This document shows positions 22,743 to 59,949 of a stretch of DNA of 64,000 nt, piece by piece. The DNA is from Rhodopseudomonas faecalis (lineage in GTDB: Bacteria > Pseudomonadota > Alphaproteobacteria > Rhizobiales > Xanthobacteraceae). A program made the position numbers and the translations under genes. Location: assembly GCF_003217325.1 (NCBI RefSeq), contig NZ_QJTI01000023.1:1-64000 (forward strand). Direction: 5' to 3'. The notes beneath the pieces were generated by a model. That model made no database searches. It was not told where the DNA came from and saw nothing but the letters and a program-made list of their open reading frames with translations. Every line of letters starts with the position of its first letter. Within the stretch, counting starts at the first letter, position 1.

Positions 22743-25310
22743 ATGACCAATCCCGACCAGTTCAGCGGCAACGACCTGCCGGACTATCGCCCCGCCGCCG
22801 GCGGCATTGCCGCAAGGGCGCGCGCCGCGACGCTGCCGGCCTATCTGACCGGCCTCAATCCCGAGCAGAGCGACGCGGTGCAGACGCTGGATGGCCCGGT
22901 GCTGGTGCTGGCCGGCGCCGGCACCGGCAAGACCCGGGTTTTGACCACGCGCATCGCCCATATTCTGGCCTCCGGCCGCGCCCGCCCAGGCGAGGTGCTG
23001 GCGGTGACCTTCACCAACAAGGCGGCGCGCGAGATGAAGATGCGCCTTGGCCAGATGCTCGGCCAGGCGATCGAAGGCATGCCGTGGCTCGGCACCTTCC
23101 ATTCGATCGGCGGCCGGATTCTGCGCGTCCATGCCGAGTTGGTGCAGCTCAAGTCGAATTACACGGTGCTCGACACCGACGATCAGATCCGGCTGCTGAA
23201 GCAATTGCTGGCGGCCGACAATATCGACGACAAGCGCTGGCCGGCGCGCATGCTGGCCGGCTTGATCGACGGCTGGAAGAATCGCGGGCTGACGCCGTCG
23301 CAGGTGCCGGCCGGCGAAGCGGCGATGTTCGGCAATGGCCGTGGCGGTAAGCTGTACGCCGCCTATCAGGAACGGCTGAAAATTCTCAATGCCGCCGATT
23401 TCGGCGACCTTTTGCTGGAAAACATCCGGCTGTTCCGCGAGCACCCCGACGTGCTGCGGCAATATCAGCAGCGCTTCAAATACATCCTGGTCGATGAGTA
23501 TCAGGACACGAACGTCGCGCAATATTTGTGGCTGCGGCTGCTCGCCCAGGCGCCAAGCCAAACCTCTCCCCGCGCGCGGGGAGAGGTCGGATCGCACAGC
23601 GATCCGGGTGAGGGGGCGCCTCCGCAGATCGCGGACTCTCAGCTGGCGGAGACGCCCCCTCACCCCACCCCTCTCCCCGCTCGCGGGGAGAGGGAGCAGG
23701 CGGTCGCCTTGGGTGAGAACGCCGCCCCGCCAAAGAACATCTGCTGCGTCGGTGATGACGATCAGTCGATCTATGGCTGGCGCGGCGCCGAGGTCGATAA
23801 CATCCTGCGCTTCGAGCACGATTTCCCCGGCGCCAAGGTGATCCGGCTGGAACGTAACTATCGCTCGACCGGCCACATCCTGGCCGCGGCGTCCTATCTG
23901 ATCGCCCATAACGAAGGCCGGCTCGGCAAGACGCTGCGCACCGAGGATGTCGATGGCGAGATGGTCACCGTCACCGGCGCCTGGGATTCCGAGGAAGAAG
24001 CGCGCGCGATCGGCGAAGAGATCGAACAATTGCAGCGCCAGGGCCACGCGCTCAACGAGATCGCGATTTTGGTGCGCGCCTCGTTCCAGATGCGCGAATT
24101 TGAAGATCGCTTTGTCACGCTCGGCCTGCCCTACCGGGTGATCGGCGGCCCGCGCTTCTATGAGCGCGCGGAAATCCGCGACGCGCTCGCCTATTTGCGG
24201 GTGATCAACTCGCCGGCCGACGACCTCGCCTTTGAGCGCATCGTCAATGTGCCCAAGCGCAGCATTGGCGATGCCACCGTGCAATTGCTGCACGACCACG
24301 GCCGGCGCCGGCGCATTCCGCTTTATGAAGCGGCACGCGCGATCATCGAGACCGATGAGCTGAAGCCGAAAACGCGCGGCAGCCTGCGCGACCTGATGAT
24401 GTCGTTCGAGCGCTGGCGCGCGCAGCGCGAGCTGCTGCCGCACACCGAGCTGGCGCAGATCGTGCTCGATGAGAGCGGCTATACCGAGATGTGGCAGAAG
24501 GACCGTTCGGCCGACGCCGCGGGCCGGCTGGAAAACCTGAAAGAACTGATCCGCTCGATGGAGGATTTCGAGAACCTGCAAGGTTTCCTCGAACATATCT
24601 CGCTGGTGATGGACCGCGACGGCGGCAGCGACGAAGACGCGGTGTCGGTGATGACGCTGCATTCCGCCAAGGGGCTGGAATTCGACACCGTGTTCCTGCC
24701 CGGCTGGGAGGAAGGGCTGTTTCCGCATCAGCGCGCGCTCGACGAACAGGGCCGCGCCGGGCTCGAGGAGGAACGCCGCCTCGCCCATGTCGGCATCACC
24801 CGCGCGCGCAAGCGCGCCAAATTGTATTTTGCCACCAACCGCCGCATTCACGGCTCCTGGACCACCACGATTCCGTCGCGCTTCCTCGATGAACTGCCCG
24901 GCGATCATGTCGAGATCACCGAATCCAAGGGCGGCTCGGGCTGGGGCGGCGCCGGCGGCTATGGCGCGTCGCGGTTCGACGATGTCGGCGCGTTCGGATC
25001 GAGCTACTCGACGCCCGGCTGGCAGCGCGCCCAGGCCAATCGTGGCCGCGGCACCGGAAGCGGTTTTAGCGAAAGCCCCTCCTCATTCTCGCGCGGCGAC
25101 TTTGCCCGCAAGCGCGCGCCGCTCACCATCGAGGGCGAGCTGGTGGCGAAATCAACCGGCACGCAGTCCGAGTTCTCGCTGCAACAGCGGGTGTTTCACC
25201 AAAAATTCGGCTATGGCGAAGTGGTGCGGATCGACGGCAACAAGCTCACCATCGCTTTTGACAAGGCCGGCGAGAAGAAGGTGGTCGATAGTTTCGTGGA
25301 GCGGGTGTAG
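22743..25310 (+). CDS. uvrD: UvrD/PcrA-type superfamily 1 DNA helicase with in-frame palindromic insertion
   Basis: 3'-5' helicase for nucleotide excision and mismatch repair. Walker A GAGTGKT lies at 58-64 after LNPEQSDAV. Motif Ia is AVTFTNKAAREMK, motif II VDEYQDTN (~250), motif III GDDDQSIYGWRGAE (~337), motif IV RLERNYRS, motif V VMTLHSAKGLEFD, motif VI VGITRARKRAK. Between motifs II and III about 44 residues (~274-317; QTSPRARGE...PLPARGERE) are encoded by a family C palindromic element. The C-terminal region is Gly/Ser-rich and ends with a PcrA-like Tudor segment (KFGYGEVVRIDG). ATG 22743 or 22731 is the start; GAGGAG immediately precedes the latter. Confidence 0.95.
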   Translation: MTNPDQFSGNDLPDYRPAAGGIAARARAATLPAYLTGLNPEQSDAVQTLDGPVLVLAGAGTGKTRVLTTRIAHILASGRARPGEVLAVTFTNKAAREMKMRLGQMLGQAIEGMPWLGTFHSIGGRILRVHAELVQLKSNYTVLDTDDQIRLLKQLLAADNIDDKRWPARMLAGLIDGWKNRGLTPSQVPAGEAAMFGNGRGGKLYAAYQERLKILNAADFGDLLLENIRLFREHPDVLRQYQQRFKYILVDEYQDTNVAQYLWLRLLAQAPSQTSPRARGEVGSHSDPGEGAPPQIADSQLAETPPHPTPLPARGEREQAVALGENAAPPKNICCVGDDDQSIYGWRGAEVDNILRFEHDFPGAKVIRLERNYRSTGHILAAASYLIAHNEGRLGKTLRTEDVDGEMVTVTGAWDSEEEARAIGEEIEQLQRQGHALNEIAILVRASFQMREFEDRFVTLGLPYRVIGGPRFYERAEIRDALAYLRVINSPADDLAFERIVNVPKRSIGDATVQLLHDHGRRRRIPLYEAARAIIETDELKPKTRGSLRDLMMSFERWRAQRELLPHTELAQIVLDESGYTEMWQKDRSADAAGRLENLKELIRSMEDFENLQGFLEHISLVMDRDGGSDEDAVSVMTLHSAKGLEFDTVFLPGWEEGLFPHQRALDEQGRAGLEEERRLAHVGITRARKRAKLYFATNRRIHGSWTTTIPSRFLDELPGDHVEITESKGGSGWGGAGGYGASRFDDVGAFGSSYSTPGWQRAQANRGRGTGSGFSESPSSFSRGDFARKRAPLTIEGELVAKSTGTQSEFSLQQRVFHQKFGYGEVVRIDGNKLTIAFDKAGEKKVVDSFVERV
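23563..23694. repeat. Family C palindromic element inside the uvrD coding sequence
   Basis: Hairpin CCTCTCCCCGCG/CGCGGGGAGAGG at the left end and CCCTCTCCCCGC/GCGGGGAGAGGG at the right end flank inner complementary arms (GGTGAGGGGGC and GCCCCCTCACC). Same composite plan as 2284-2412. The span is 132 bases, a multiple of three, and contains no stop in the uvrD frame, so the helicase reading frame is preserved. Confidence 0.88.
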
Positions 25311-38295: not shown

Positions 38296-38390
38296 CACGT
38301 CATGCCCGCGCTTGTCGCGGGCATCCACGTCTTGCAGACTTTGCAGGATGAAAGACGTGGATGGCCGGGACGAGCCCGGCCATGACGCCC
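38296..38390. repeat. Inverted pair of family B palindromes (miniature element)
   Basis: Left unit CACGTCATGCCCGCGCTTG... (38296-38337) and right unit ...GACGTGGATGGCCGGGACGAG... (38353-38387) are inverted relative to each other with a short spacer. This equals the two borders of the GIY-YIG 2 locus without the gene. Confidence 0.85.
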
Positions 38391-38467: not shown

Positions 38468-40791
<2,324 letters not shown>

Positions 40792-40812: not shown

Positions 40813-41100
40813 ATGGCTTATTATGTCTATCTCCTCGCAAGCAGGAAAGACGGCGCCCTCTACGTTGGCGTAACCAACGATCTGGTGCGACGCATCTACC
40901 AGCACCGGACCAAAACGATCCCCGGTTTCACCTCACGCTACAACATCACCAGACTGGTCTGGTTCGAGGTCTATGCCGACCCGATCTCCGCCATTACGCG
41001 GGAGAAAGAGCTCAAGAGATGGCGCCGAGCCTGGAAGATCGCGCTGATCGAGCGGGACAATCCGGGTTGGAACGACCTGTACGACAGCATTGCGCAATAA
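40813..41100 (+). CDS. GIY-YIG nuclease domain protein 1 (UPF0213/YhbQ-like)
   Basis: 95 residues: MAYYVYLLASRKDGALYVGVT, i.e. the Y-V-Y...LYVGVT variant of the GIY-YIG core. R27 or R28 follows in NDLVRRIYQH, then FTSRYNITRLVWFE and the candidate metal-binding Glu in ITREKELKRWRRAWK. Single-domain endonuclease-like protein. It stands alone between ligA and recN, opposite in strand, and is flanked on both sides by family A palindromic doublets. A longer frame to 40504 has no support. Confidence 0.93.
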   Translation: MAYYVYLLASRKDGALYVGVTNDLVRRIYQHRTKTIPGFTSRYNITRLVWFEVYADPISAITREKELKRWRRAWKIALIERDNPGWNDLYDSIAQ

Positions 41101-41103
41101 CTG

Positions 41104-41225
41104 CGAGATTCCGGGTTCGCTCGCAAGAGCGAGCGCCCCGGAATGACGGTGTGGAGTGGCTCGGGCATCACCCCGAGTCATTCCGGGGCGATCGCCGCGA
41201 CAGCGGCGGGCGAACCCGGAATCTC
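41104..41225. repeat. Family A doublet downstream of GIY-YIG gene 1
   Basis: Unit 1 (41104-41147): GAGATTCCGGGTTCGCTCGC...GAGCGCCCCGGAATGACG. Unit 2 (41176-41225): AGTCATTCCGGGGCGATCG...GCGAACCCGGAATCTC. Same order and orientation as the doublet upstream of the gene, which it follows by only 4 bases. Confidence 0.88.
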
Positions 41226-53587: not shown

Positions 53588-53734
53588 TGACGGGGATGGC
53601 CGGGACAAGCCCGGCCATGACGGAACGAGTGGAAGCGTGCTAATGTCACTACCCCCGATTGCCCAGTTGTTTGTGATGGATTGAACTCTCAGCACGTCAT
53701 GGCCGGGCTTGTCCCGGCCATCCACGTCTTGCGG
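53588..53734. repeat. Family B palindromes upstream of GIY-YIG gene 2
   Basis: Unit 1 (53588-53622) contains GATGGCCGGGACAAGCCCGG. Unit 2 (53692-53734) is inverted: CACGTCATGGCCGGGCTTG...CCATCCACGTCTTGC. The gene starts 10 bases after unit 2. Confidence 0.88.
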
Positions 53735-53743
53735 AGGAGCAGC

Positions 53744-54034
53744 ATGGCTGGCGGCTATGTCTATGTTCTGACTAACCGGCCGAACGGCATCTTGTATGTC
53801 GGCGTCACCAGCGATCTGGTCCGCCGCGTGTATCAGCACCGCGAAGGTTTCGTGGACGGCTTCACCAAGCGATACGGGCTGAAGCGGCTGGTGTACTTCG
53901 AACATTTCGAGGATATCCGAACCGCTATCCAACGCGAGCACAACATCAAGCACTGGCCGCGAGCTTGGAAGGTCCGGATGATCCTGGCGACCAACCCCAG
54001 TTGGGATGACCTGTTTCCGACCATCGCGCAGTGA
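53744..54034 (+). CDS. GIY-YIG nuclease domain protein 2 (UPF0213/YhbQ-like)
   Basis: 96 residues: MAGGYVYVLTNRPNGILYVGV, R in SDLVRRVYQH, FTKRYGLKRLVYFE, and Glu in IQREHNIKHWPRAWK. Paralogue of the gene at 40813 by length and motif order. Ribosome site GGAGGAGC. Located between murC and murB on the opposite strand. Family B palindromes lie directly on both sides, mutually inverted. Confidence 0.93.
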   Translation: MAGGYVYVLTNRPNGILYVGVTSDLVRRVYQHREGFVDGFTKRYGLKRLVYFEHFEDIRTAIQREHNIKHWPRAWKVRMILATNPSWDDLFPTIAQ

Positions 54035-54070
54035 AGACGTGGATGGCCGGGACAAGCCCGGCCATGACGA
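54034..54070. repeat. Family B palindrome downstream of GIY-YIG gene 2
   Basis: GACGTGGATGGCCGGGACAAG, then CCCGGCCATGACG, beginning at the gene's stop codon. It is the reverse complement of 53692-53730, giving the gene terminal inverted repeats of about 36 bases. Confidence 0.88.
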
Positions 54071-58081: not shown

Positions 58082-58421
58082 CGACGCTCCTCGGCGATCC
58101 TGGGAATGATTGCAGCCGGCGAGCCGCGGCCACCGATTGGCCGTCGGCCGGCAGATGGCGCCGGGCTCACCTCATTGGTGCGCCATCGTGGTTGCCAAGG
58201 GGTTAATGGAATCGAAATGATTGCAGGGAGCTGGCCGAGCGTCCGTCACGGCCGGGGCCGGCGCCCTCTCCCCGCTCCCCGCTGCGCGGGGAGAGGTAAA
58301 GAGCGGCCTATCGCCCGGTGGTGAATCCCGATTTATCCGCACGGTCTGACACGGTGGCGGCCGGCTCCCTCTCCCCGCTTGCGGGGAGAGGTAAAGAGCG
58401 GCCAGGCGGCGGGGCAAATCC
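58082..58421. other. Gap between ftsW and murD
   Basis: 340 bases with two family C palindromes (listed separately) and no gene. It interrupts an otherwise tight series. Confidence 0.6.
58264..58391. repeat. Two family C palindromes in direct order
   Basis: Copies at 58264-58296 and 58367-58391, each followed by GTAAAGAGCGGCC, so they are direct repeats. The first has an internal duplication (CCCCGCTCCCCGCTGCG), so its arms are uneven. Confidence 0.85.
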
Positions 58422-59856: not shown

Positions 59857-59949
59857 CGTCATGCCCGGGCTTGACCCGGGCATCCACGAAGCCAAGCGAG
59901 GCCTTGCCTGTTGTCGTGGATGGCCGGGACAAGCCCGGCCATGACGGGG
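59857..59949. repeat. Inverted pair of family B palindromes
   Basis: CGTCATGCCCGGGCTTGACC... (59857-59891) and ...GTCGTGGATGGCCGGGACAAG... (59912-59949), mutually inverted with a ~20-base spacer. Matches the pair at 38296-38390. Confidence 0.88.

Follow-up and report, generated by a model that had tools for sequence, protein, structure and literature searches.

A probable REPtron-like element with a GIY-YIG nuclease gene between inverted CGTC palindromes in Rhodopseudomonas faecalis

Palindromic repeats and their partner nucleases

In Neisseria, the GIY-YIG nuclease Ssn reportedly cuts single strands at a repeat (NTS) and modulates transformation, so the pairing of a nuclease with a repeat is as such already known. 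GIY-YIG homing endonucleases share the same domain and spread by cutting an empty site. In REPIN/RAYT systems (REPtrons), as set out in excerpts of PMC3116915, short tagged palindromes occur with inverted doublets that behave as miniature elements and with a nuclease gene flanked by the palindromes, and different paralogues have different repeat families. The CGTC REPs, described in the consulted sections of PMC3733652 (Di Nocera 2013), combine a CGTC tag, an AT-first 9-bp stem, a 5-nt loop and a CCA tail; they form dimers and occur in alpha-proteobacterial hosts including R. palustris, which carries CGTC-3, and neisserial CGTC-1 is equated there with dRS3. The same sections present these repeats as lacking a dedicated transposase and leave as a question what mobilises them.

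We analyzed a 64,000-nt stretch of DNA from Rhodopseudomonas faecalis (contig NZ_QJTI01000023.1, positions 1 to 64,000; hereafter the window), in which a small GIY-YIG gene lies between CGTC palindromes at the murB–murC junction. Each of the REPIN/RAYT features listed above recurs here, and a partner gene is found between cognate palindromes as in a REPtron. However, the gene encodes a GIY-YIG protein and not a Y1 HUH tyrosine transposase, and the tag is CGTC, not GTAG; moreover, a covalent intermediate is not expected for a GIY-YIG enzyme, unlike a RAYT. The element thus works like a REPtron, yet has no RAYT. It likewise shares the tag, stem, loop, tail, dimers and host group of the CGTC REPs, with the difference that the GIY-YIG gene provides a candidate partner enzyme. 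The likeness to Ssn/NTS, one of description and not of sequence or activity, is that in both a small GIY-YIG protein goes with a repeat found throughout the genome. Spread by cutting of an empty site would work as for the homing endonucleases, but the targets would be a repeat family and not one unique site.

Anatomy of the element and its nuclease

The GIY-YIG gene (53744–54034, plus strand, from the list of open reading frames) encodes 96 amino acids from ATG to TGA, and a profile search matched its product to PF01541 at E 3e-14. It occupies the gap between murB and murC, which were named from their own sequence and from a preliminary description of this DNA; a murB search gave one match per genome in 16 congeneric genomes. 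Inverted repeats of 36 nt (53695–53730 and 54034–54069), 100% complementary and 303 nt apart, enclose the gene, which bears out the terminal inverted repeats of about 36 bp that the preliminary description had reported. The left end that it had placed at 53588, however, proved to be that of a third palindrome (P<, 53593–53622, minus strand), a direct copy of the right palindrome that lies outside the element and is separated from it by a 72-nt spacer (53623–53694, no strand). The left palindrome unit (P>, 53695–53724, plus strand; terminal repeat extending to 53730) and the right unit (P<, 54040–54069, minus strand) each consist of a CGTC tag, an AT-first 9-bp stem, a 5-nt loop and a CCA tail. 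By sequence reading, 13 nt with a ribosome-binding-like GGAGGA run (53731–53743, plus strand) separate the left repeat from the ATG, and the right terminal repeat starts on the final base of the stop codon. The reading frame of the gene extends open through the left palindrome (53681–53743), and automatic annotation may start the protein too early.

Both element palindromes folded as single-stranded DNA far better than their shuffles (z of −5.5 and −5.6; 0 of 200 shuffles as good). Such folding (z about −5.5), together with the position of the palindromes directly at the gene ends, would also suit common terminators of transcription or mRNA-stabilising structures beside a gene that is inherited vertically. 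We regard this explanation as most improbable: the gene is missing from the murB–murC gap in 13 of 16 congeners, the palindromes exceed 100 copies in the genome with 51 of the 56 examined in pairs, and such repeats are found at murB in 0 of 16 genomes.

In an alignment of 29 homologues, Y7, Y18, G20, R28, H32 and N84 were invariant (29/29) and E65 was present in at least 90%; from knowledge of the GIY-YIG family, we take these residues to be catalytic. The window protein therefore has both the domain match and the active-site residues of a GIY-YIG nuclease. A group I intron endonuclease model matched it weakly (E 0.001, 19 bits versus a cut-off of 56), a further difference from the homing enzymes, and NCBIfam gave no name above its cut-off. 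The nearest solved structure was 1zg2 (BH0048, a UPF0213 GIY-YIG protein; E 4e-6). The UPF0213-like paralogue in the R. faecalis genome (C18) differs from the window gene in having no flanking inverted repeat (score 20 in the flank test below). The window nuclease probably belongs to the single-strand-specific Ssn family of GIY-YIG enzymes.

A second paralogue, GIY-YIG 1 (40813–41100, plus strand), lies between an upstream palindrome (40740–40789, plus strand) and a downstream palindrome (41103–41147, minus strand). Both resemble Br-REP2 as given in excerpts of PMC5082802, and the palindrome family round GIY-YIG 1 is indeed another one, as had been proposed.

Copies, edges and occurrence among relatives

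Homologues were fetched for 40 of 51 matches from 16 genus genomes and for 80 of 98 non-genus matches (61 family genomes sampled, 45 with a match), mostly the weakest being left out of each set. At every locus, the 200 nt upstream were compared with the reverse complement of the 200 nt downstream at a threshold score of 30. Inverted flanks reached this score in 108 of the 120 homologue loci, compared with 6 of 476 intervals shifted within those loci; the window gene scored 72. For a second set drawn from named genomes, in which 42 of 44 loci were new, the result was 34/42 versus 0/162 for the control. The flank test thus found no such repeats at 12/120 and 8/42 loci. When flanks were given mismatched partners, 780 of 4,000 reached 30, such partners often sharing a palindrome family, and direct-orientation scores of at least 30 were found in 65/120 loci, as palindromes would give. 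murB, taken as a control gene, had no inverted flanking repeats in any of the 16 genomes, and 3 of 52 non-overlapping window ORFs reached 30, with a maximum of 34. A cluster of eight GIY-YIG loci (L096, L098, L175, L180, L188, L190–L192) has GC-rich GTCCCGG...CCGGGAC flanks without the CGTC tag.

The palindrome is abundant in the R. faecalis genome, with 106 copies at up to 3 mismatches to a 32-nt pattern and 111 stem-pattern copies at up to 2 mismatches; the reversed control gave 0 in both searches. A tag, a short AT-first stem, a loop of 4–5 nt, a CCA tail and many copies are what defines a CGTC-tagged REP in the text of PMC3733652, the basis of this comparison rather than the consensus in its figure, and all were found. 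Across 28 loci of this genome, seeded on near-exact palindrome copies plus the window, 51 of 56 palindromes were paired. Among 26 pairs, 25 were arranged tails-in with the CGTC tags outward, one was heads-in and none was direct; the spacer of the CGTC-outward pairs was 30–33 nt in 24 cases and 315 nt in one, the GIY-YIG gene unit. The palindromes thus occur mostly as inverted pairs with a short spacer, the hallmark of a REPIN. By a count of the listed dimers, those with short spacers start with CGTCTT in 18/24 and end with AAGACG in 16/24, the same inner ends as the gene unit. The stems are unlike each other within all 24 gene-less dimers and in the gene copies of genome G070, and identical in the window gene unit. 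One such 90-bp dimer in the window (38298–38387) has the inner ends CGTCTT...AAGACG in the orientation of the gene unit and is proposed as a non-autonomous form; a second (59857–59946, also 90 bp) has different inner ends. By analogy, the 90-bp dimers would stand to the gene unit as a REPIN stands to its autonomous element. Another palindromic family without the CGTC tag, CCTCTCCCCGC...GCGGGGAGAGG, occurs in the window at 247–271, 2387–2412, 23562–23587, 23669–23694 and 58368–58391.

The edges of the unit were examined at 37 loci with an A-type left palindrome, 566 of whose 666 pairs were non-syntenic. Beyond the left CGTC edge, agreement over 55 positions was 0.26 (566 non-syntenic pairs), and beyond the right edge it was 0.27 (405 pairs); identity inside the edges was near 1.0 by selection, and the result is the chance-level identity outside. 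An inverted downstream palindrome was found in 52 of 64 loci with such an upstream palindrome, 8 of the 52 having an extra one further upstream, and in 25 the left palindrome begins exactly 49 nt before the matched start. One within-genome copy pair is clear: G070 carries two copies on different contigs whose genes are 88% identical, and their alignment spans 376 columns; it begins 4 nt before the left palindrome and stops 1 nt past the right one. Both outer edges were reached in this one of four aligned gene pairs (three within one genome each, one on one contig); the alignments of L132/L150, L092/L094 and L205/L212, the last on one contig, were partial.

These copies bear on a possible Ssn-type role in the regulation of DNA uptake and genome dynamics, in which the protein would use its palindromes as cutting sites on single strands that are incoming or exposed, the flanks would autoregulate or protect the gene, and nothing would move. 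Ssn of Neisseria is reportedly a GIY-YIG single-strand cutter that modulates transformation, the active site is kept in the window protein, and the flanks of one homologue, in the beta-proteobacterium Duganella levis (L233), match the dRS3 pattern ATTCCC(N8)GGGAAT. That pattern, taken from a table note in PMC3898611, would link the window family indirectly to the neisserial Ssn system. Regulation alone nevertheless leaves unexplained both the gene-less dimers with the same ends and the presence of the same unit at unrelated loci with its edges at the palindromes, and we consider it unlikely as the full account. Ssn-type regulation and spread of an element are compatible, and both can hold.

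At murB–murC, a by-eye reading found the gene in 3 of 16 congeneric genomes: G000, G008 and the closest congener, R. palustris JSC-3b (G002), where the right palindrome is lost in Ns. Among the 13 genomes that lack it, G003, G005 and G015 have a single palindrome at the place of the third palindrome, partly decayed in G015; G001, G009, G012 and G013 have a short gap with no palindrome; and G004, G006, G007, G010, G011 and G014 have other sequence. The comparison of sister genomes that the preliminary description had called for therefore found a gene that is not fixed in this gap, with one palindrome in three of the genomes without it. The left flank in G015 resembles that of the left palindrome in G008, and its right flank that of the G008 right palindrome, which either recombination between direct copies or a pre-insertion state would give. 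On a tree built from murB and downstream DNA, the three carriers need two changes, so that the pattern would suit an old insertion followed by losses, transfer or several gains alike.

A second locus, compared in 14 genomes, showed the same kind of variation: the gene is present in G010, G004 and G013, and one palindrome is found in G009 and G007 and, decayed, in G012; G010 has an additional decayed copy with the 3' end of the gene. At this second locus, L299 (in G011) and L309 (in G005) carry a distant GIY-YIG gene beside a CTCATCCTTCGAGACG...CCTCAGGATGAG repeat, perhaps a further nuclease–palindrome pair outside the CGTC type. One G070 copy (L148) is absent in G042, where both neighbouring genes are present and there is no palindrome; in G074 and G075 the neighbourhood of L148 differs. 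Against R. palustris JSC-3b, none of the seven R. faecalis sites alignable on both sides was a clean empty site. JSC-3b holds the same dimer at L008, L010, L011 and L014 (Ns touch two of them, and at L010 its right palindrome has decayed), another dimer in the same position at the intergenic loci L005 and L019, indicating turnover in place, and Br-REP2-like repeats instead of the dimer at its counterpart of 38298. The differing dimers at one spot would fit conversion between copies. The description of the gene as carried between palindromes hence holds in that the same sharp-edged unit recurs at unrelated loci and relatives lack it; no insertion or excision was resolved to the base at the compared loci, whose flanks were too diverged or held one palindrome.

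Copy number was a weak marker of gene presence (p 0.12 for the window type and p 0.034 for another type; a third pattern, which cross-matches the first pattern at two mismatches, was left out) and was set aside as such. G007 has 119 palindrome copies though it has no close homologue; there the gene may have been lost, another paralogue may serve, or the nuclease may not drive copy number.

Clade-wise pairing and a proposed mechanism

Palindrome type follows the nuclease. Palindrome similarity correlated with protein identity across 108 loci (Mantel r 0.49; none of 2,000 permutations as high, the best reaching 0.11), using 5,606 of 5,778 pairs after 172 syntenic pairs were dropped. The palindrome was shared in 1% of the pairs with 40–50% protein identity and in 55% (11/20) of those with at least 80%. 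On a protein tree of 93 tips, five stem types can be placed with 6 changes, the minimum being 4 and the shuffled mean 47 (0 of 200); the tree took 93 of 162 loci, leaving out 49 in which none of the seven stems searched for occurred, 19 with mixed or rare stems and one short protein. A well-supported branch sets apart the ATTCCGGGGCG type and another the ATTGCGAG type, while many other forks are unresolved. The type ATGGCCGGG belongs to clade A, which includes the window gene; ATTGCCGGG accompanies WVYILASAPGG proteins, ATCGCCCGG YVYILASRIGG proteins, GTCATTCCGGGGCG the GIY-YIG 1 clade and CATTGCGAGC VANRRNG proteins. These results support the proposal of a separate cognate palindrome for every nuclease paralogue, on the model of RAYT/REP lineages, and random families round one clade were not found when the phylogeny was set against flank type. 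The stems also covary (0.413 versus 0.099 in shuffles, 0 of 500), with 7 of 9 stem pairs compensated among 40 distinct palindromes, a set pre-picked for at least 7/9 pairs and so biased towards structure.

The gene might instead be a passenger, caught between two palindromes whose mover is some other enzyme, for instance a RAYT. The 111 copies in the R. faecalis genome and a Y1_Tnp match in 6 of 16 congeners (none in the other 10) would accommodate such capture, which is nonetheless very unlikely, since chance capture would not match palindromes to nuclease clades and the R. faecalis genome itself has no Y1_Tnp match (0 at E up to 0.001, 2 candidates scored). On the latter ground a RAYT was rejected as the mover. 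In addition, the consulted sections of PMC3733652 report no tyrosine transposase flanked by CGTC repeats. Given the lack of a Y1_Tnp match in this genome and the retained active-site residues, we took the GIY-YIG nuclease to be the enzyme that acts on the palindromes.

We therefore favor the view that 53695–54069 is a small REPtron-like element, made up of a palindrome, a GIY-YIG gene and an inverted palindrome, whose predicted nuclease acts on its own palindromes while repair spreads the units; we consider this likely. Weighing against it are the loose link between copy number and gene presence, the homologue loci at which the flank test found no repeats, the partial alignment of three of the four gene pairs, the unlike stems of the gene-less dimers and the failure to find a clean empty site among the seven compared with JSC-3b. 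The nuclease would recognise the hairpins that its own palindrome family forms, most probably in single-stranded DNA, and would cut at the CGTC tag or close to it. In repairing the cut, the host might then use another copy as template or join a released single strand elsewhere, and gene-bearing units and gene-less 90-bp dimers would be spread alike. A GIY-YIG enzyme is hydrolytic and would not be expected to join strands again as a Y1 (HUH) transposase does; spread would thus proceed through repair of cuts, with homing-like repair the likeliest form. A broader reading, which we put forward tentatively and with rather less confidence, is that these are transposase-free mobile elements: clade-specific GIY-YIG single-strand nucleases would cut CGTC hairpins and repair would copy the ends elsewhere. 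The CGTC REPs would then have had a dedicated, co-evolving enzyme from the start, gene-bearing units would be the autonomous form and dimers the non-autonomous one, and solo palindromes would be scars left by deletion.

As far as we have seen, the gene unit, the gene-less dimers, the sharp edges, the solo palindromes and the clade-wise pairing are new in alpha-proteobacteria. None of the papers surveyed was seen to join GIY-YIG to REP palindromes, and the words nuclease, transposase and RAYT are absent from a 2025 REP survey (PMC12306157). GIY-YIG nucleases become candidate enzymes for the CGTC REPs, one for each of several palindrome families, which makes the question of their mover directly testable. 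Many matched nuclease–hairpin pairs are now available for work on single-strand recognition. If the proposed mechanism is true, a REPIN-like lifestyle also evolved around a nuclease that has no relation to RAYTs.
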